From Abyssibacter profundi (GTDB lineage Bacteria > Pseudomonadota > Gammaproteobacteria > Nevskiales > OUC007), in contig NZ_QEQK01000015.1 in assembly GCF_003151135.1 (NCBI RefSeq), positions 136 through 64,135 of the forward strand: 64,000 nucleotides of DNA, in the 5' to 3' direction. Every line of letters starts with the position of its first letter. Positions within the stretch are counted from its first letter, which is position 1. Positions 1,306-30,315 of this stretch are shown piece by piece. The notes under the pieces were generated by a model. The model saw nothing but the letters and a program-made list of their open reading frames with translations, was not told where the DNA came from and did not search any database. The translations under genes were made by a program, and so were the position numbers.

Positions 1306-1836
1306 ATGTCTCCTGCCACGTTGTCTACCTCCTCGCTGCCGCCTAGCCACGGACTCCAGGGTCTGGGCCATCAGGCCGGCAAAATGCTGTTCATCATTCT
1401 GGTGGCTGTTGTCGTGCTGCTGGCAGCCGGTGGTGGTGCCGCCTGGTTCTTCCTGTCTGGAGGCGATGAGACGGAAGAGGGCGCCGACTCCGAGACGGCC
1501 GAGGAAACGGTTAAGGGTCCGGCGATTTATCACGCCTTCGACCCGGCCTTCGTGGTCAATCTGTCGGATGGCGACAACATGCGCTTCCTGCAGGTGGAAT
1601 TACAGGTGATGACCCGCGACGAGGCCGTGCCGGCCGCGCTGACACAGCACGAGCCGGTGATTCGCAATGACTTGCTGCTGCTGTTCGGTAGCCAGGACTA
1701 CAACGAACTGGAAACCCGCGAAGGCCGGCTGAATCTGCAAACCGCCGCGCTGAATGAAATCGTCCGTGTGCTGGAAGCCGAAGGGGAGCCCAGTGCAGTG
1801 GAAGCCGTCTACTTCACCAGCTTCGTCATGCAATGA
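1306..1836 (+). CDS. fliL: Flagellar basal body-associated protein FliL
   Basis: Single-pass inner-membrane protein that surrounds the stator units and supports motor torque. About 176 residues: a poorly conserved 25-residue head, one transmembrane helix (LFIILVAVVVLLAAGGGAAWFFL), an acidic linker, then the periplasmic FliL domain with YHAFDPAFVVNL and RFLQVELQVMTRD, ending in YFTSFVMQ as usual for the family. ATG 1306 was preferred to the in-frame TTG at 1300; neither has a strong ribosome site. First gene after the sigma-54 promoter, overlapping fliM by ATGA. Confidence 0.9.
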   Translation: MSPATLSTSSLPPSHGLQGLGHQAGKMLFIILVAVVVLLAAGGGAAWFFLSGGDETEEGADSETAEETVKGPAIYHAFDPAFVVNLSDGDNMRFLQVELQVMTRDEAVPAALTQHEPVIRNDLLLLFGSQDYNELETREGRLNLQTAALNEIVRVLEAEGEPSAVEAVYFTSFVMQ

Positions 1837-2813
1837 GCGACGTCCTCTCACAAGATGAGATCGACGCGCTGCTCCACGGCGTCGAAGATGGCGATGTCGA
1901 AACCGGCACGGATGAGGTCGGTGCGGACGGAGCGCGGACCTACGATCTGGCCATGCAGGACCGGATTGTCCGGGGTCGGATGCCGACGCTGGAGATGGTC
2001 AACGAGCGTTTCGCCCGCTATTTCCGCATCAGCCTGTTCAACATGTTGCGGCGCTCGCCGGACATCACGGTGCGCAGCGTGCAGACGGTCAAGTTTTCGG
2101 AGTACCTGCACCAGCTGTTCGTGCCCACCAATCTGAACCTAATCAAGGTCAAGCCGTTGCGTGGCACCGGGCTGATGATCTTCGAACCCAAGCTGGTGTT
2201 CGCGGTGGTCGACAATTTCTTTGGTGGCGACGGACGTTTTCACACCAAGATCGAAGGTCGCGAGTTCACCTCGACCGAGATGCGGGTGATCCAGATCCTG
2301 CTCAACCACGCCTTTGAGGACTGGGTCCAAGCCTGGTCGCCGGTGTTACCTCTGGAATTCGAGTATCTGCAATCCGAGGTCAATCCGGCCTTTGCCAACA
2401 TTGTCAGCCCCAGCGAAATCGTGGTGGTCTGCCGCTTCGAAGTCGACATCGACGGTCAGGGGGGCGAGGCACATCTTACGCTGCCGTACTCGATGGTCGA
2501 GCCGATTCGAGACCTGCTGGATACCGGCATACAAAGTGACCGCGGCGATCGTGACGAACGCTGGACGGCGACGCTGAAACAACAGCTGCTGGGGGCCGAG
2601 GTCGACATCAGCAGCACGCTTTGCGAGGTGCGGATGAGCCTGTCCCGCCTGCTGAAAATGAAGGTGGGTGACGTGATCCCCATCGATATGCCCGACACCG
2701 TCGATTTCTCTGCCGAAGGCGTGCCGCTGTACGACTGCGAGTTCGGCGTGGCCGGCGGTAACCAAGCACTCAAGCTCGTTCGCGCGGTGCGCGACGAGAT
2801 TCAGGTCCATTGA
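1833..2813 (+). CDS. fliM: Flagellar motor switch protein FliM
   Basis: C-ring switch component that receives CheY-P and sets rotation direction. 326 residues, normal for the family. The N-terminal CheY-docking peptide is clear (LSQDEIDALLHG, residues 5-16), followed by the CheC-like middle domain (QDRIVRGRMPTLEMVNERFAR) and the C-terminal SpoA-like domain (about 250-320). The ATG overlaps the fliL stop. The docking peptide resembles two segments in the CheA encoded at 18400. Confidence 0.97.
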   Translation: MSDVLSQDEIDALLHGVEDGDVETGTDEVGADGARTYDLAMQDRIVRGRMPTLEMVNERFARYFRISLFNMLRRSPDITVRSVQTVKFSEYLHQLFVPTNLNLIKVKPLRGTGLMIFEPKLVFAVVDNFFGGDGRFHTKIEGREFTSTEMRVIQILLNHAFEDWVQAWSPVLPLEFEYLQSEVNPAFANIVSPSEIVVVCRFEVDIDGQGGEAHLTLPYSMVEPIRDLLDTGIQSDRGDRDERWTATLKQQLLGAEVDISSTLCEVRMSLSRLLKMKVGDVIPIDMPDTVDFSAEGVPLYDCEFGVAGGNQALKLVRAVRDEIQVH

Positions 2814-17327: not shown

Positions 17328-17720
17328 ATGGACACAAACATGAAGGTGCTGGTGGTCGACGACTTTCCGACCATGCGCCGTATCGTCAAGAATCTGATGC
17401 AGGACCTCGGGTTCTCGAATTTCGTCGAGGCCGAGGACGGACAAAGCGCTCTCAACGCCTTGGGTGCCAACGGCAACGGGATCGAGTTCGTGGTCACGGA
17501 CTGGAACATGCCGGGGATGACGGGCATCGAATTGCTCAAGGCGATTCGTGGTAACCCGGCGCTGTCGCGTTTGCCGGTGCTGATGGTGACCGCCGAATCC
17601 ACGCGCGAGCAGATCATTGAGGCCGCCAAGGCCGGAGTGAACGGCTACATCATCAAACCGTTTAACGCCGGGACGCTTAAGGAAAAGCTCGATCGCATCT
17701 TCAACCGGGCCGCAGCGTGA
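17328..17720 (+). CDS. cheY: Chemotaxis response regulator CheY
   Basis: Single receiver domain, 130 residues, that carries the phosphoryl signal from CheA to FliM. Acidic pair in [13 protein letters not shown], phospho-acceptor Asp58 in [10 protein letters not shown], Thr in MVTAEST and Lys in [16 protein letters not shown] upstream and the family start support ATG 17328. The stop overlaps cheZ by GTGA. Confidence 0.96.
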
Positions 17721-18337
17721 CCGGCGCCGCGTCCACCGCGGCGCTTCGCGACGATGTGGCCGCGCTGTCGGCGGCGCTGGATGCCGGTGACCTCACCCAG
17801 TTTCACGAAATCGTCGCCCGGCTCAACGAGGACCGGGCCAACCGCGTGATCAACGGTTTGCAGTGCGTGAGCCGCAACCTGGCCAAGGCTTTGAACCAGC
17901 TGGCGCTGGATGAGCGGCTGGTGCGTTATGCCGGCAGCGACATGCCGGATGCCTGCGAGAGGCTAAGCCACGTGATGCAAATGACCGAGGATGCCGCCAA
18001 CCGCACGCTCGACCTGGTGGAAGCCACGCAGGCCGAACTACCTGGGCTGGCCACCGCTGCCGGCGAAACCGCCGTGGACGGCTTGCGCAAAAACCTGTCC
18101 GCCATTGCCGAAGCCCAGGCCTACCAGGACCTCAGCGGACAGGTGATCCGCCGGGTCATCCAGTTGGTCAAAGGCGTGGAAAACGCGCTGGCAGATCTGC
18201 TAGACCTCGCGGGTCTGGATGTTGCCGGTGCCCAGCCGGAACCGCACATCGCCGGAGGCCCAGCATTGGTTGGCCTGGACAATCACGGATCAACCCAGGC
18301 TCAAGCTGACGACCTGCTGGCCGATCTAGGACTGTAG
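17717..18337 (+). CDS. cheZ: CheY-P phosphatase CheZ
   Basis: Dephosphorylates CheY-P. 206 residues from a GTG overlapping cheY. Long helical hairpin with the catalytic segment [16 protein letters not shown] (the QD-x-x-GQ motif whose Gln enters the CheY active site) and a C-terminal CheY-docking peptide [11 protein letters not shown] after a flexible linker. Its presence with cheY and cheA marks the F6-type flagellar system. Confidence 0.95.
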
Positions 18338-18399
18338 AGGCGCGCGGCGACCCGGTCCGGGTCGTGGCGCCGCATAGCACTGTCGTTAGAGGCCGACCC

Positions 18400-20412
18400 A
18401 TGGATCAAGAACTGCTGGCTGACTTTCTGACCGAGGCGGGCGACATGGTCGATGCCCTCGGCGAGCAGATCGTCGCCTTCGAACAGTCCGACGCCGACCC
18501 CGAGCAGCTCAACGCGCTGTTCCGCGTCTTCCACACGATGAAGGGCAGTGCCGGGTTTCTCGAAATCCAGCCCATGGTGGATCTCTGCCACGCGGCTGAG
18601 GAGCTCATGGGCGCCGTGCGCAAGGGGGCCCTGGACATCAGCCCCGAGATCATCGACGGCATTTCACAAAGCGTCAGCTGGCTGGACCAAGCACTGGCCG
18701 AGTTATCCAATGGCGAGGCGATCACGCCTGCCGATCCGGCACTGATTGCATCGCTGGAAGCTGCCTGCCGCGGGGAGTCTCCGCCCGCACCCGAGCCGCA
18801 GGCCGAGCCCGTTCCCGAGCCAGCGGTGGACGTGGATGCCATTCTCGGTGAGGAAACCGGCGAACCCATTAGCGATGATGATTTCGAGGCCTTGCGAGCC
18901 GCCTTTCACGGCTCGGAGCCGGCTGCGGCCGGTAGCGCCAAGCGCGAAGTGGATGTCGATGCGATTCTCGGTGAAGAGACCGGCGAGCCGATCAGCGATG
19001 ATGACTTCGAGGCCTTGCTTGATGCCTTCCACGGCAACGAGCCCGCAGCACCGCCGGCCGCAGCGCCCGCTGAGCCGTCGACGCCCGCGGCTGCGCCTGT
19101 TGCAGCTGCGCCGCGAGCGGCCGCAGCCCCCGCGGCCAAACCGGCTGATCAAGCGCCAAAGAAGGCGCGGGTGGAGACGTCCATCCGCATCGATACGGAC
19201 CGGCTGGACGCCGTGGTCAATCAGGTCGGCGAACTGGTGCTGGTGCGAAACCGGCTCAAGCGCCTGCGAGAATCCGTTGACGATCCGCTGCTCGACCGCA
19301 CCCTGGGCCACCTGGACCAGGTGACCACCGGCCTGCAAAGCTCGGTGATGCTCATGCGCATGCAGCCGGTGCGCAAGGTGTTCTCCAAAATTCCGAAAAT
19401 CGTCCGCGACCTGTCGCGGACCTTGAACAAGAAGATCGAGGTTGTGCTGGAAGGCGAGGACACCGAACTGGACCGCACGCTGGTCGAGTCGCTGTCCGAG
19501 CCGCTGGTCCATCTGGTGCGCAACGCGGTGGATCACGGTATCGAAATGCCGGCCGAGCGCCTGGCCGCGCGCAAGCCCGAAGTGGGGCGCTTGACGCTGG
19601 CCGCGCAGCAGGTCGGTGACCACATCCACATCGAAATTCGCGACGACGGCGCCGGTATCGATCCGTCCGTGATTCGCGCCAAGGCAATCGAGAAAGGCGT
19701 GATTGATCGCGAATCGGCGGCGCGCCTGGACGGTCAGGAATGCCTGGATCTGATTTTTCAGCCCGGGTTTTCCACCCGTGATGCCGTCTCCGAAGTCTCG
19801 GGGCGCGGTGTGGGCATGGATGTTGTCCGCTCCAAGATTGTCGAACTCAATGGCAGTGTGGAGATCACGTCCGAAGTCGGCGAGGGGTCGGCGTTCCTGA
19901 TCAGACTGCCTCTGACCCTGGCGATTCTGCCGGCGTTGATGGTGACGGTGAGCGGCCGCGAGTTCGCCATACCCGTGACCGCGATTGAGGATGTCTCGCG
20001 TTTCGACAGCACCCGTGTCGAGTGCATGGGCAGTCGCGAGGTCTTGCGCCGCGAGGAAGACGTCATCGCGCTGGTGCGCATGGAACACTGGGTCGGGCGG
20101 CCATCTGCCGCCGATCAGCAGCATTGCGTGATTGTCGATGTGGGCCGCGAACGCCGCGCGCTGCTCGTCGACGATGTACCGGGCCGCGAAGAGATCGTCG
20201 TCAAGCCTTTGGGCAAGATGATGGGCGGATTGGCTGGCATCGCCGGGGCCAGTGTCACCGGCGATGGTGGCATCGCCCTGGTGCTCGATCTGCCCGGTCT
20301 GCTCAAACAGGTTTCACCGGCCTACTCGGCGCCCCGGTCCGCACCGCCACCCATGCCTGCCGCACAGCCGGCAGCCGCCGGCGCGGACGACATGGACCTG
20401 GAGCTGTTCTAG
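18400..20412 (+). CDS. cheA: Chemotaxis histidine kinase CheA, flagellar cluster
   Basis: 670 residues. P1 phosphotransfer domain with phospho-His45 in FRVFHTMKGSAGF; a long linker (about 125-260) with no globular P2 but two near-identical 35-residue segments 41 residues apart; P3 dimerisation helices (RLDAVVNQVGELVLVRNRLK), P4 ATPase with HLVRNAVDHGIE, DDGAGID and GRGVGMDVV, and the P5 CheW-like domain. The protein ends in MDLELF. The start ATG 18400 follows a GAGG-like site. Stop codon interlocks with the convergent acetyltransferase in CTAG. cheB, normally next, is missing. Confidence 0.95.
   Translation: MDQELLADFLTEAGDMVDALGEQIVAFEQSDADPEQLNALFRVFHTMKGSAGFLEIQPMVDLCHAAEELMGAVRKGALDISPEIIDGISQSVSWLDQALAELSNGEAITPADPALIASLEAACRGESPPAPEPQAEPVPEPAVDVDAILGEETGEPISDDDFEALRAAFHGSEPAAAGSAKREVDVDAILGEETGEPISDDDFEALLDAFHGNEPAAPPAAAPAEPSTPAAAPVAAAPRAAAAPAAKPADQAPKKARVETSIRIDTDRLDAVVNQVGELVLVRNRLKRLRESVDDPLLDRTLGHLDQVTTGLQSSVMLMRMQPVRKVFSKIPKIVRDLSRTLNKKIEVVLEGEDTELDRTLVESLSEPLVHLVRNAVDHGIEMPAERLAARKPEVGRLTLAAQQVGDHIHIEIRDDGAGIDPSVIRAKAIEKGVIDRESAARLDGQECLDLIFQPGFSTRDAVSEVSGRGVGMDVVRSKIVELNGSVEITSEVGEGSAFLIRLPLTLAILPALMVTVSGREFAIPVTAIEDVSRFDSTRVECMGSREVLRREEDVIALVRMEHWVGRPSAADQQHCVIVDVGRERRALLVDDVPGREEIVVKPLGKMMGGLAGIAGASVTGDGGIALVLDLPGLLKQVSPAYSAPRSAPPPMPAAQPAAAGADDMDLELF
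18826..19053 (+). repeat. Tandem duplication in the CheA linker (period 123 bp)
   Basis: Two copies, 18826-18930 and 18949-19053, encode VDVDAILGEETGEPISDDD followed by FEAL and AFHG; they differ at only a few residues (RA versus LD before AFHG). Codon differences between copies show that the duplication is not brand new. The core ISDDDFEALLDAFHG aligns with FliM LSQDEIDALLHG. Confidence 0.9.
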
Positions 20413-23704: not shown

Positions 23705-24013
23705 ATGTCCCATACCGCACTGAAGCTGAACCTGGACGGTGAACTGTCCATTCGCGAAATTTCGACGCTGCATGCACGGCTGATGGATGCCCGTACCAGC
23801 GAGGAGCCCGTGACCCTGGACGGCGAGCATGTTGTTCGCGTTGACACGCCCGGGCTGCAACTGCTCGCCAGCTTTGTCAGCGAGCGCGCCAGTTGTGGCC
23901 GGCAGACGAGCTGGTCTGCCGCCTCAGCGGCGCTGCGGGATGGTGCCCGTCTGCTGGGTCTTGAATCACTGCTCGCCCTTGACTCCCTCCAGACCGACTC
24001 GGAGACCCACTGA
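23705..24013 (+). CDS. STAS-domain protein (anti-anti-sigma fold)
   Basis: 102 residues, a lone STAS domain: LKLNLDGELSIREISTLHARL, VTLDGEHVVRVDTPGLQLLASFV. In SpoIIAA-like proteins the central loop is D-x-S-G with a phosphorylatable Ser; here it reads VDTPGLQ, so Thr would be the acceptor if any. GGGAG precedes ATG 23705. Leads the cheY-cheA-cheW cluster and overlaps cheY by one base. Similar STAS genes accompany che clusters in other gammaproteobacteria; exact role unclear. Confidence 0.8.
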   Translation: MSHTALKLNLDGELSIREISTLHARLMDARTSEEPVTLDGEHVVRVDTPGLQLLASFVSERASCGRQTSWSAASAALRDGARLLGLESLLALDSLQTDSETH

Positions 24014-24375
24014 TGAAAAAGATTCTTGCCGTTGATGACTCGCCCTCCATGCGCCAGATGGTGGCCTACACCCTGCGCGATGCCGGGTTTGACGTGGAAG
24101 AAGCCGAGGATGGCCAGGTCGCGCTGGATAAGGCGAAGTCCAATGCCTACTCGCTGGTGCTGGCCGACGTGAACATGCCGAATATGGACGGCATCACGCT
24201 GGTGCGTCAGCTCCGTGGGCTGGACAGCTACAAGTTCACGCCGTTGCTGATCCTGACCACCGAAGCCGGGGCCGACAAGAAGGCCGAAGGCAAGCAGGCC
24301 GGTGCCACCGGCTGGCTGGTCAAGCCTTTCAATCCCGACCAGCTGATCTCGGTTGTCCAACGCGTTTTGAACTGA
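24013..24375 (+). CDS. cheY: CheY-type response regulator, second cluster
   Basis: 120 residues, one receiver domain. Acidic pair in ILAVDDSPSMRQM, phospho-Asp52 in VLADVNMPNMDG, Thr in ILTTEAG, and Lys in WLVKPFNPDQL. No output domain. Upstream of its likely kinase CheA and coupled to the STAS gene (TGATG). Confidence 0.95.
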   Translation: MKKILAVDDSPSMRQMVAYTLRDAGFDVEEAEDGQVALDKAKSNAYSLVLADVNMPNMDGITLVRQLRGLDSYKFTPLLILTTEAGADKKAEGKQAGATGWLVKPFNPDQLISVVQRVLN

Positions 24376-24407
24376 TCGATCACCCCAACTGACAAGGCGT
24401 AGCGCCC

Positions 24408-26384
24408 ATGAGCATCGACATGCAGCAGTTCCAGCAAACCTTCTTTGAGGAGAGTCTGGAAGGGCTGGATGTCATGGAATCAGGGTTGCTGGAGATGGAC
24501 CCCTCCGCGCTGGACGCGGAGGCCATCAACGCCATCTTCAGGGCGGCGCATTCGATCAAGGGTGGTGCCGGGACCTTCGGGTTCGAGCCCATCAGCCAGT
24601 TCACCCATGTGGTGGAGACGCTGCTGGATGACCTGCGCAGCGGCAGTCGCAAGGCAGACACGGCGTTGGTCGACTTGCTGCTGCGCTCGGTCGACAGTCT
24701 GCGGGCCATGTTCGACGACGCCCAGGCGGGTACGCCAATCGACGTCTCGCGGCATAACGATGTGCAGCGGGAGCTGCTGGCGATTCTGGAACAGGCACCA
24801 GATGACGCAGACCCGTCGGCGAAGATCGATCCGGCGCTTGCCGTCGCGGGTTGGCAAATTGATTTCCGCCCGCATCCCGAGCTGTTCACCACCGGCAATG
24901 ATCCCCTGCATGTGTTCCGCGAACTGGCTGCCATGGGCCCTTTCACGGCGACACCCGACAGCAGCAACCTGCCGGATGTCGAGCACCTGGATGCCACGCT
25001 CTGCCATCTGCACTGGACGCTGGATTTGCAGGCGCCGGTCACAGAAGAGGCCGTGCGCGAAGCCTTTGCGTGGATTGAGGACGAGTGTGACCTCAGCCTC
25101 AAGCCCCAGCATCTGGTGGATGACCCAGAACTCGGCACCTTGCCCAAGCTTGCCGAGACGGACAGCGTCAAAGCCGACAAGCCACGAACGCCCGCGCAGT
25201 CAGCCGCGGCCAGTAGCAGCCTGCGCGTGGGTGTCGACAAGATTGATGCGCTGATCAATCTGGTGGGCGAACTGGTCATTACCCAGTCCATGCTCAAACA
25301 GGCCGGTCACGAGCTCGATCCCGTCCACCACGAACGGCTGATCGCCGGGCTGGATACGCTGGCCCGGAACACGCGTGATCTACAGGACGCCGTGCTATCG
25401 ACTCGCATGGTTGTGATCGAATCGGTGTTCAAGCGGTTTCCGCGTGTGGTGCGTGATGTGGCCGGCCAGCTGGGCAAGCAGGTCGAACTGCACATGGAAG
25501 GCGAGGGGACCGAGCTGGACCGCAGCGTCACCGAGAAGATTGTTGATCCGCTGACACATATCGTCCGCAACAGCATCGATCACGGCATTGAATCACCCGA
25601 GCAGCGCCAGGCCGCGGGCAAGCCGGCCAAGGGCCACATCACGCTCAAGGCTGCCCACGAAGGTGGATTCATCGTCATCGAGGTCATCGATGACGGTGCC
25701 GGCCTGAATCGCCAGCGCATACTCGACAAGGCCCGGGACTCCGGACTCGCTGTCAGCGATGACATGCCCGATTCCGAGGTGTGGCAGCTGCTGTTTGCCC
25801 CCGGCTTTTCAACGGCCGAAACGGTGACAGACCTGTCCGGCCGCGGTGTCGGCATGGACGTGGTCAAGCGCAACATTGTGAGCCTCGGCGGGCAGGTGAC
25901 CCTGTCGTCGCAGACAGGCCGTGGCACGCGGGTCGAGATTCGTCTGCCGCTGACGCTGGCCATTCTCGACGGCATGTTGGTGGGCGTTGGCGACGAAACC
26001 TACGTCGTGCCCTTGAACGTCGTCTGCGAATCGCTGCAACCCGCCGAATCCGATATCAAACGCATCACCGGCCAGGCGGAGATGGTCCGTGTGCGTGATG
26101 CGTATATCCCCATTCTTCGCCTGTCTCAGGCTTTTGGCGTGCAAGACGCGCAGCCATCGCTGACGGACAGCGTGCTGGTCATCGTCGAGAGCGAGGGCCG
26201 GCAGGTGGCCCTGCAAGTCGACCAGCTGCTGGGACATCAGCAAGTGGTCATCAAGAATCTGGAAGAACACTACGGCAGCGTTTTCGGCGTGTCCGGCGCG
26301 ACCATTCTTGGAGATGGCCGGGTCTCACTCATTCTCGACGCCGCCGAGCTTGCAAACACGTTCGATCAGGTCCGCGCGGCTTAG
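24408..26384 (+). CDS. cheA: Chemotaxis histidine kinase CheA, second cluster
   Basis: 658 residues. P1 with phospho-His48 in FRAAHSIKGGAGTFG, a real P2-like region (about 145-235, including WQIDFRPHPELF), P3 (KIDALINLVGELVITQSML), P4 with HIVRNSIDHGIE, DDGAGLN and GRGVGMDVV, and P5. The architecture is full length, in contrast to the first CheA, which lacks a P2 domain. AAGGCG precedes the ATG. Confidence 0.95.
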   Translation: MSIDMQQFQQTFFEESLEGLDVMESGLLEMDPSALDAEAINAIFRAAHSIKGGAGTFGFEPISQFTHVVETLLDDLRSGSRKADTALVDLLLRSVDSLRAMFDDAQAGTPIDVSRHNDVQRELLAILEQAPDDADPSAKIDPALAVAGWQIDFRPHPELFTTGNDPLHVFRELAAMGPFTATPDSSNLPDVEHLDATLCHLHWTLDLQAPVTEEAVREAFAWIEDECDLSLKPQHLVDDPELGTLPKLAETDSVKADKPRTPAQSAAASSSLRVGVDKIDALINLVGELVITQSMLKQAGHELDPVHHERLIAGLDTLARNTRDLQDAVLSTRMVVIESVFKRFPRVVRDVAGQLGKQVELHMEGEGTELDRSVTEKIVDPLTHIVRNSIDHGIESPEQRQAAGKPAKGHITLKAAHEGGFIVIEVIDDGAGLNRQRILDKARDSGLAVSDDMPDSEVWQLLFAPGFSTAETVTDLSGRGVGMDVVKRNIVSLGGQVTLSSQTGRGTRVEIRLPLTLAILDGMLVGVGDETYVVPLNVVCESLQPAESDIKRITGQAEMVRVRDAYIPILRLSQAFGVQDAQPSLTDSVLVIVESEGRQVALQVDQLLGHQQVVIKNLEEHYGSVFGVSGATILGDGRVSLILDAAELANTFDQVRAA

Positions 26385-26994: not shown

Positions 26995-29900
26995 ATGGGT
27001 AACAACAGCATTTTGGGTTTGTTTGGCGGTTCACGCGATGCGCAGCGGCAACGTGCGATTACGCAGGGCCAGGTCGCGGCTCTGGATAAGTCCATGGCCG
27101 TGATTCATTTCGACCTGGAGGGGAACATCCTCAAGGCGAATCGCAATTTCTGCGACACGGTGGGCTATGAGTCCAGCGAGATCATCGGCCAGCACCACAG
27201 CATCTTTGTCGAACCCGCGGAGCGCGAGAAGGCCTCATACCGCGATTTCTGGGCAAAACTCGCCCGGGGCGAGTTCGACCGGGCCACGTACAAGCGGGTC
27301 AAGAAGAACGGCGATCCGGTTTGGATCGAAGCGACCTATAACCCGATCTTCGACGAGGCCGGCCAACCGTTCATGGTGGTGAAATACGCCACCGATGTGA
27401 CCGAACGCATGCGCGTCGCCAGCGATCACGAGGGCCAGATCGCGGCCATCGGAAAATCACAGGCAGTCATCCAGTTCGAACTGGATGGCACGATTATTAG
27501 CGCGAACGACAATTTTCTCGCCGCGACCGGGTACACGCGGGACGAGGTCATCGGCAAGCACCACAGCATGTTTGTCACGCCCGAGGATCGCGCGTCCGAC
27601 GCCTATCGTCTGTTCTGGAAGCAGCTGGCACTCGGCGAGTTCGACAAGGGGACCTACAAACGGGTCGCCAAGGATGGCAGCGAAATCTGGATTGAGGCGA
27701 GCTACAACCCGATCTTCGATGCCGCGGGTCGACCCTTCAAGGTCGTCAAATACGCCACAGATGTGACCGAGGCGCGTAATCGGGCAGCCGAAAACGCTGG
27801 ACAGCTGGCAGCCATCCAGAAGTCCCAGGCTGTGATCGAGTTCGATATGGACGGCAACATTCTCTCCGCCAACAGCAACTTTCTGGAGACGGTGGGGTAC
27901 ACGCTGGACGAGATCCAGGGGCGTCACCACAGCGTGTTCGTGGACAAAGACTATGCCGCCTCATACGAGTACCGAGAATTCTGGGCCAAACTGAACCGTG
28001 GCGAGTACGACGCGGGTCAGTACGCGCGTATCGGTAAAGGCGGGCGGCGGATCTGGATCGAGGCGTCCTACAACCCGATCCTAGATGCCGAGGGACGGCC
28101 GATGAAGGTGGTCAAGTACGCCACTGACATCACCGAGAAGATGCAGGCGAATCTGGCCATGGAGCAGGTGGCCAAGCAGACCATGGCCATTACGGCATCA
28201 GAGGATTTGTCGCAGCGCATCGAAGTCGATGCGGCCAGTGGCCTGGTGGGTGAACTCTGCACCTGCATCAACAAGATGCTCGATCACATCCATCGCAATG
28301 CAGAGCGTGAGCAGGTGGCGGCGGCCGATAACCTGCGCATCCGGAATGCGTTGGACAATGTGACCACCAATGTGATGATCGCTGACAACGATCGCCGCAT
28401 CATTTACATGAATGAAGCGGTTCGCAAGATGTTGGTGACCGCGGAAGCGGATATACAGAACGAACTTCCCGAGTTCCGGGTGGAAAACCTCGATGGGCAG
28501 TCCATCGACGCCTTCCACAAGAATCCGGACCACCAGCGCCGCATGCTGGAACGGTTGGAAACGGCCTTTAAGACCGATATCAAGCTGGGCGGACGCACTT
28601 TTGGTTTGATCGCCAGTCCGGTGATCAGCGATGACGGCGAGCGTCTGGGCACGGTTGTGGAGTGGCAGGACCGCACGCAGGAACTGGCGCTGCAAGCCGA
28701 AATCGAGGCCCGGGAAGCGCGAGAGCGTGAGATCGCGGACGAGAACCTGCGCATTCGCAATGCCCTGGACAACGTCTCGGCCAATGTGATGATCGCGGAC
28801 AACGACCGGCGTATCACCTACATCAACCGTTCGCTGTTCAACATGTTTACCGTGGCCGAGGCAGACCTGCGTGAGGATTTGCCCCAGTTTGATGTGCGTA
28901 AGGTCATGGGGACCTGCATCGACGATTTCCACAAGAATCCTGCGCACCAGGAGCGCATGATCTCGCAGCTGCGTGACACCCACCGTGCACAGATCAAGGT
29001 CGGCGGGCGAACCCTGGCGCTAACCGTCAACCCCATTCTTGATGACAAGGGTGAGCGTCGCGGCACCGTGGTCGAATGGCAGGATCGCAAGGCCGAAGTG
29101 GCCGTCGAACAGGAAATCGGTGAAGCCATCGAAGCCGCCAACAACGGTGATTTCGCCAAGCGCATTCAGCTTGACAACAAATCGGGATTCTTCCATCGCA
29201 TTTCGGCAGGGATCAATCAGTTGATGGGCGGGTTCGAATCAGGCTTCGAGTCCATCAACCGCACGCTGGTGGCCATGGCAGATGGCGACTTCACGCAGCG
29301 TATCGACGAGGATTATCGGGGCTCTTGGGCCGAGCTCAGCAATTCGGTGAACACCACAGTGGATCGGCTCACCGATTTGCTCGGGCAGATTCGGAACTCG
29401 TCGGTCGAGATCAATGGGGCCTCCCGCGACATCGCCTCCGGGGCGGATGATTTGTCGGCCCGCACGGAGCAGACGGCAGCCAGCCTCGAGGAAACGGCCT
29501 CGTCGATGGAAGAGCTGACGTCGGCCGTGCGCCAGAATTCGGAGAATGCCGAGCAGGCCAACCAGTTGGCTGTCGGTGCCAGCGAGACCGCCAATCGTGG
29601 CGGCGAGGTCGTGAAGCAGGTGGTCGTCCGCATGGGCGAGATTACCAACAGCTCTCGCGAAATCAGCGAAATTATCAGTGTGATTGAAGGCATCGCGTTC
29701 CAGACCAACATCCTGGCGCTAAACGCGGCTGTGGAAGCGGCCCGCGCCGGTGAGCAGGGTCGCGGCTTCGCGGTTGTGGCGGGCGAGGTGCGGTCTCTGG
29801 CGCAGCGGTCGTCGGCAGCCGCCAAGGAGATCAAGAAGCTGATCTCCAGCTCGGTGGACAACATCAGCAAGGGCAGCGAGATGGTGGATCAGGCCGGCGA

Positions 29901-30315
29901 GACAATGGCCGAGATCGTTAGTGCCGTGAAACGCGTGACCGACATCATGGGCGAGATTACCGCCGCATCGCGTGAGCAGCGGTCGGGTATCGAGCAGGTC
30001 AACGACGCCATCACGCATATGGATCAGGGCACGCAACAGAATGCGGCGCTTGTGGAGGAGTCTGCAGCAGCGGCGAAGTCTCTGACCGACCAGGCTGACG
30101 GGCTGCTGACCGCCATTCGCCGATTCCGTTTCGACGCGGAGGATGCTGTGGCAGAGCCGTTGGTCCGAGGCCCAAAAGCGCCCATCTCGCAGGTCAGTCG
30201 ACCTGAGAAGCCGGCTGCTAACCACTCACAAAAGCCTGCGCCTGCGAAGGTGGCAGTCGCACCGAAAGCACCGCCTGCGGCTGTTGCAGGTGATGAGCAG
30301 TGGGCTGAGTTCTAG
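26995..30315 (+). CDS. Soluble five-PAS chemoreceptor (methyl-accepting)
   Basis: 1106 residues with no transmembrane segment, so cytoplasmic. Three tandem PAS domains of one type (about 29-140, 151-262, 273-383; period 122) each carry HHS-[IMV]-FV and a VVKYATD-[VI]-T end; two further PAS-like domains of another type (about 446-560, 585-700) each begin RIRNALDNV; then a HAMP-like region, and the signalling hairpin with tip EGIAFQTNILALNAAVEAAR. It ends in QWAEF, a W-x-x-F pentapeptide like those binding CheR. Comparable in position to Pseudomonas Aer-2/McpB and in architecture to soluble PAS receptors such as BdlA; oxygen or redox sensing is possible but not shown. Confidence 0.9.
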   Translation: MGNNSILGLFGGSRDAQRQRAITQGQVAALDKSMAVIHFDLEGNILKANRNFCDTVGYESSEIIGQHHSIFVEPAEREKASYRDFWAKLARGEFDRATYKRVKKNGDPVWIEATYNPIFDEAGQPFMVVKYATDVTERMRVASDHEGQIAAIGKSQAVIQFELDGTIISANDNFLAATGYTRDEVIGKHHSMFVTPEDRASDAYRLFWKQLALGEFDKGTYKRVAKDGSEIWIEASYNPIFDAAGRPFKVVKYATDVTEARNRAAENAGQLAAIQKSQAVIEFDMDGNILSANSNFLETVGYTLDEIQGRHHSVFVDKDYAASYEYREFWAKLNRGEYDAGQYARIGKGGRRIWIEASYNPILDAEGRPMKVVKYATDITEKMQANLAMEQVAKQTMAITASEDLSQRIEVDAASGLVGELCTCINKMLDHIHRNAEREQVAAADNLRIRNALDNVTTNVMIADNDRRIIYMNEAVRKMLVTAEADIQNELPEFRVENLDGQSIDAFHKNPDHQRRMLERLETAFKTDIKLGGRTFGLIASPVISDDGERLGTVVEWQDRTQELALQAEIEAREAREREIADENLRIRNALDNVSANVMIADNDRRITYINRSLFNMFTVAEADLREDLPQFDVRKVMGTCIDDFHKNPAHQERMISQLRDTHRAQIKVGGRTLALTVNPILDDKGERRGTVVEWQDRKAEVAVEQEIGEAIEAANNGDFAKRIQLDNKSGFFHRISAGINQLMGGFESGFESINRTLVAMADGDFTQRIDEDYRGSWAELSNSVNTTVDRLTDLLGQIRNSSVEINGASRDIASGADDLSARTEQTAASLEETASSMEELTSAVRQNSENAEQANQLAVGASETANRGGEVVKQVVVRMGEITNSSREISEIISVIEGIAFQTNILALNAAVEAARAGEQGRGFAVVAGEVRSLAQRSSAAAKEIKKLISSSVDNISKGSEMVDQAGETMAEIVSAVKRVTDIMGEITAASREQRSGIEQVNDAITHMDQGTQQNAALVEESAAAAKSLTDQADGLLTAIRRFRFDAEDAVAEPLVRGPKAPISQVSRPEKPAANHSQKPAPAKVAVAPKAPPAAVAGDEQWAEF

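Follow-up and report, generated by a model that had tools for sequence, protein, structure and literature searches.

The P2 domain of CheA is the textbook docking site for CheY, which raises the question of how CheY would be held by CheA1, a kinase encoded within the 64,000-nucleotide stretch of Abyssibacter profundi DNA analysed here (the window). The CheA1 frame is open from a GTG at position 18364 through 20412, and the P1 domain starts at an ATG at 18400. Pfam identified the complete set of CheA histidine kinase domains (Hpt, H-kinase_dim, HATPase_c, and CheW); no match to P2 or CheY-binding was found in CheA1 or in 34 members with motif-bearing linkers (A1). A sequence-only reading had proposed that two FliM-like peptides in the linker between P1 and P3 recruit CheY in place of P2. 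The features relevant to this proposal are listed in Table 1.

Table 1. Chemotaxis features of the window, numbered from its first nucleotide
Feature	Coordinates	Strand	Evidence	Remarks
FliM	1833–2813	+		Starts MSDVLSQDEIDALLHG; CheY-P-binding peptide LSQDEIDALLHG at 1845–1880
CheY1, presumed partner of CheA1	17328–17720	+	Pfam	FliM-binding face I95, A99, V103, Y106, K119 (E. coli numbering)
CheZ	17717–18337	+	Pfam for CheZ	C-terminal CheY-binding peptide at 18290–18334
CheA1	18400–20412	+	Pfam scan, AlphaFold2	P1/Hpt, linker, P3, P4, P5; without P2
Repeat copy 1, VDVDAILGEETGEPISDDDFEALRAAFHG	18826–18912	+		Arg replaces second Leu
FliM/CheZ-like peptide, copy 1, ISDDDFEALRAAFHG	18868–18912	+	AlphaFold2	Predicted helix, residues 159–170
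Repeat copy 2, VDVDAILGEETGEPISDDDFEALLDAFHG	18949–19035	+
FliM/CheZ-like peptide, copy 2, ISDDDFEALLDAFHG	18991–19035	+	AlphaFold2	Predicted helix, residues 200–210
CheY2	24013–24375	+	Pfam	Adjoins CheA2; K95, K99, W106, not a FliM-type face
CheA2	24408–26384	+		P2 domain at about 24840–25124; without repeats

Both linker copies described in that reading are present, in tandem between P1 and P3, at a spacing of 123 nt (41 aa) and as a DNA repeat of 112 nt with 79% identity. Both fit VDVDAILGEETGEPISDDDFEAL(R/L)(A/D)AFHG, and only three amino-acid positions distinguish them (R/L, A/D, and S/N), none of which precedes the second Leu. Across the 34 codons compared, 15.5 of 20 changes were synonymous and 4.5 nonsynonymous (dN/dS 0.036); because most differences are synonymous, the repeat has been kept by selection on the protein. 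The EALL pattern said to be shared by the copies holds for copy 2, whereas copy 1 reads EALR. Since this Arg sits where 99% of relatives' copies have Leu, copy 1 is possibly weak, and it is doubtful that CheA1 of this genome docks CheY "twice over". The copy 2 peptide is the best candidate for a CheY-docking site in CheA1; it is probably the working site here, with copy 1 a weak one.

Based on an AlphaFold2 model of CheA1 residues 1–317, P1 forms a confident bundle in agreement with CheA P1 structures, and confidence is low across most of the linker, where short helices are predicted on both motifs. PDB sequence searches with the repeat returned chance-level matches only. Each repeat opens with VDVDAILGE (18826–18852 and 18949–18975), a segment that is loosely FliM-like (compare DEIDALLHG) and receives a tiny helix from AlphaFold2 in each copy; it was not seen in the relatives' linkers examined.

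FliM of the same genome begins with a matching peptide, as had been claimed, and CheZ ends in a related acidic-Leu peptide that matches the C-terminal half of the CheA motif. Side by side, the peptides read LSQDEIDALLHG in FliM, typically GQDDVDDLLSSLGF in CheZ, and ISDDDFEALLDAFHG in CheA1, for which the typical CheA form is ITDDEFEALLDQLHG. The CheA motif thus resembles the FliM peptide in its N-terminal half joined to the CheZ C-terminal peptide, to which its C-terminal half is closer than it is to FliM; CheA1 follows this peptide pattern position by position, with copy 1 deviating at the second Leu. With the N-terminal CheY-P-binding peptide of FliM, known from E. coli CheY complexes (such as PDB 1F4V and 1U8T) and as the FliM chain in 4IGA, the motif has in common the pattern [IL][ST][QD]DE[IF][DE]ALL and a short helix. 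It differs in that the CheA copies form repeats inside a kinase linker, carry Phe for Ile, and have an extra LDxLHG tail. With the CheZ peptide it shares the acidic pattern [QD]D[DE][VF][DE]xLLxxL, including a Leu three residues past LL, and flexible attachment; however, the CheZ peptide lies at the chain end with LGF, whereas in CheA each copy is internal and closes with LHG.

A loose CheY-peptide pattern, run against all window ORFs of at least 80 aa, matched in three places: copy 2, FliM, and one minus-strand frame. When 77,179 window peptides were scored with a matrix derived from the N-termini of 28 FliM proteins of the order, the top rank went to FliM itself and the third to copy 2. A matrix built from the CheA profile was set aside in favour of the FliM-derived one, since it is dominated by the CheA Phe and so ranked FliM only 7th of 75,376 window peptides. 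Pfam SHOCT also matched 26 of the 34 motif linkers at E values up to 0.01 (best 2.8e-8). These matches count against a specific resemblance, as part of the likeness is that of a generic N-capped acidic helix. The likeness is real yet not unique taken alone, and the comparative evidence therefore carries the case.

For this comparison, 214 CheA loci were grouped according to which of three CheAs from this genome they matched best over P3–P4, giving a CheA1-like class a (152 loci) and two P2-type classes, b (40) and c (22). The strict motif ([IV][ST][DE][DE]EFEALLDxLHG-like) occurred in 1–4 linker copies in 139 of 152 class-a loci, a frequency that is not a population estimate because class a was sampled largely by similarity to the query. 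It occurred in none of the 40 class-b loci and in 3 of 22 class-c loci, all three being false positives at the start of P3, and in 0 of 3040 shuffled linkers. The association of motif with class is strong (Fisher p about 1e-36), although the sequences are related and hence non-independent. Class a also holds variants outside the strict pattern (DAEFEALLD in L149, DQEFEQLLD in L193, and DVDLDALLD in L035), and its clear non-carriers are distant or fragmentary. When whole open frames were scored with the FliM matrix, the best match fell in the linker in 143 of 152 class-a CheAs and usually elsewhere in the P2-type classes. Across five genera, identity was 84–98% in the motif versus 44–57% in the spacers, and class-a linkers are otherwise unconserved. 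Most Gammaproteobacteria sampled thus have a CheA without a folded P2 and with 1–4 FliM-like peptide copies instead, so the putative dock is widespread in that class and not special to this genome; CheA1 itself was not found in two genomes of the same genus.

The second CheA of the window had been said to keep a P2-like region and to lack the copies, and this agrees with our analysis: AlphaFold2 modelled with confidence a ferredoxin-like domain in CheA2 where P2 is expected. Foldseek placed no CheA P2 among the best 50 matches listed for CheA2, and VIA-align 2 aligned it to the P2 of 1u0s (Z 7.2, rmsd 2.6, 73 aligned) in a tie with unrelated ferredoxin-like folds. Because these structure matches are non-specific, the P2 assignment rests mainly on profile comparison. 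In hhalign, class-b and class-c linkers share a P2 domain (99.9%, 137 columns), and Pfam CheY-binding matched five class-b members (best E 1e-22); in contrast, the 34 motif linkers aligned with P2-type linkers over P3 only. P2 (Pfam PF09078 and P2; PDB 1U0S and 2LP4) thus occupies the same position between P1 and P3 as the CheA1 linker, for which a docking role would be the counterpart, but it is a folded ferredoxin-like domain, whereas the linker has short helices only and no profile similarity to P2.

In their section on P2, Berry, Andrianova and Zhulin 2023 (PMC10542144) report that more than half of CheAs lack this domain and describe their P1–P3 region as unstructured; CheA1 resembles these proteins in its extended, unstructured P1–P3 region. 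That section names no motif, whereas here one large P2-less group carries a conserved one. According to the same survey, E. coli CheA without P2 still functions, slowly, so a CheY dock is not obligatory.

The presumed partner, CheY1, fits the pattern. In CheYs encoded beside class-a CheAs, Q94, I95, V103, Y106, and K119 were found in 99 of 99 and A99 in 98 of 99, whereas those beside class-b and class-c CheAs had K95, A103, and W106 in 33 of 33, and mostly K99. The alpha4-beta5-alpha5 binding face is therefore present in CheY1 and in nearly all 99 linked CheYs. We regard this face as permissive and not as independent evidence for docking by CheA, because it is expected anyway in any CheY that binds FliM. 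Of the eight CheY-F6 residues reported at the CheA interface (K22, R26, D27, D37, G62, R92, Q94, and V103; PMC7184735), CheY1 carries six (Q26 and E37 differ) in a residue-by-residue comparison.

Taken together, near-universal occurrence in relatives, lack of overlap with P2, conservation confined to the motif, and a FliM-face CheY support well the proposed mimicry of FliM in place of P2. We consider it likely that a linear-motif CheY dock replaces P2 in the F6-like CheA class, using the face common to FliM, CheZ, and P2. The P1–P3 linker of CheA1 would be a disordered tether bearing short helical peptides, and we infer that these bind CheY1 on alpha4-beta5-alpha5, where FliM and the CheZ C-terminus also bind, as does P2 in E. 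coli. Such docking would raise the local concentration of CheY beside phospho-P1 and affect phosphotransfer; it may also favour the active conformation of CheY. All three traits (the motif, the missing P2, and the CheY type) follow one CheA lineage, and their co-occurrence may represent few independent events.

The FliM and CheZ peptides bind CheY-P preferentially, and the FliM peptide binds CheY more weakly than E. coli P2 does. Both properties bear on the proposal. Unphosphorylated CheY is what a dock on the kinase should hold, contrary to the preference of the FliM peptide, and this counts against substrate docking; because that peptide is weak and prefers CheY-P, a useful dock perhaps needs several copies as well as the longer LLDxLHG tail. 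Our guess is that Phe and the longer tail may change the phospho-preference. For comparison, the affinity of E. coli P2 for CheY is about 0.5 micromolar (PMC5705603). The motifs could instead bind mainly the product, CheY-P, whether to act as a sink or brake, to keep a local pool, or to return CheY-P to the array for CheZ. Their resemblance to both CheY-P-binding peptides is consistent with this, as is the co-purification of CheZ as well as CheY with Pseudomonas putida CheA (PMC11978298). However, the conserved Phe sets the CheA motif apart from FliM and CheZ, and the motif is found where P2 is missing, suggesting that it stands in for a substrate dock; we judge product binding unlikely. In favour of docking, the same study, which treated P. 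putida CheA as a five-domain, E. coli-like protein, reported both CheY and CheZ in its pull-downs and phosphotransfer from it to CheY (PMC11978298). The P. putida CheA was not among the loci examined here; the Pseudomonas and Stutzerimonas loci that were have three motifs each.

Two further readings would give the motifs a partner other than CheY. They could be the localization and inheritance domain (LID) of CheA, a segment that recognises the ParP AIF domain and anchors arrays at the cell pole via ParC. In Vibrio CheA the LID is located between P2 and P3 (PMC7534058), and loci L245 and L246, from Vibrio-like genomes with two large contigs, carry the repeats plus an extra GPSxEELDAATKP segment. 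This segment is absent from CheA1, however, and LIDs have been reported solely in CheAs with ParC/ParP (PMC5706961). The ten CheW-domain matches in this genome are four CheAs, a CheV, and five proteins of 196–215 aa, of which the two in the window are plain CheW-like and the shorter four were judged by length; none of the five is ParP-sized, since a ParP with AIF residue W305 must exceed 305 aa. Because no ParP-like protein was found among these matches, we reject a ParP-binding LID as the main explanation, and its probability is low. Where a LID is present, it is perhaps the GPSxEELDAATKP segment, given its absence here; in L245 and L246 the segment is conserved and follows a third repeat, which makes it a candidate for the LID proper. 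Least probable of all, in our estimation, is a generic amphipathic helix that contacts P1 or P4 within CheA, CheB, or another polar protein. AlphaFold2 confidence is moderate around copy 1 (block means about 73–85), SHOCT resembles the motif, and FliM has nothing at the corresponding place to match the conserved HG that follows LLDxL; all of this would suit such a helix, but the position-by-position match to both CheY-binding peptides and the non-overlap with P2 would not.

The peptide dock has implications beyond this locus. We lean, by a modest degree, toward the broader proposal that CheAs of the F6-like flagellar class in Gammaproteobacteria dock CheY with 1–4 FliM/CheZ-like motifs and not with P2, and that E. 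coli-type systems swapped to P2 on taking over CheY, which would explain the differences at CheY positions 92, 94, and 103. Three CheY changes at these positions, on the P2-facing surface, are reported for the F6 to F7 switch (PMC7184735); if P2 took the place of a peptide dock, this would offer a reason for the altered CheY interface. If the motifs are docks, a large P2-less group, including Pseudomonas-type bacteria, uses a tunable peptide dock of variable copy number. The CheA dock would then share its CheY surface with the motor and the phosphatase, and competition among kinase, motor, and phosphatase for one face of CheY would be directly testable. No description of the CheA linker motif was found in open-access full text; subscription literature lay largely outside this search, and an earlier description is possible.

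Family f6 of the same order may contain a natural swap. Seven of its genomes (G008, G014, G019, G027, G029, G031, and G037) have FliM and an E. coli-like CheY (N94/A103); no motif CheA was detected in the family's genomes, and the one CheA of the family that was examined (L183) lacks the motif and groups with the P2 type. This suggests replacement of the whole chemotaxis system. The swap fits the idea of a peptide dock, but it is weak evidence because it looks like such a wholesale replacement.

Within the window itself, the two pathways would be insulated, with CheA1 peptides serving CheY1 (Y106) and the P2 of CheA2 serving CheY2 (W106). CheA2 and CheY2 (24013–26384) constitute a second system, in which the kinase has P2 and the CheY is of the W106 type, and two further CheA-like proteins are encoded on other contigs. 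The CheA2 cluster is followed by a gene for a large MCP-like protein (26995–30315) with several repeated PAS-like segments (KYATDVTE repeats).
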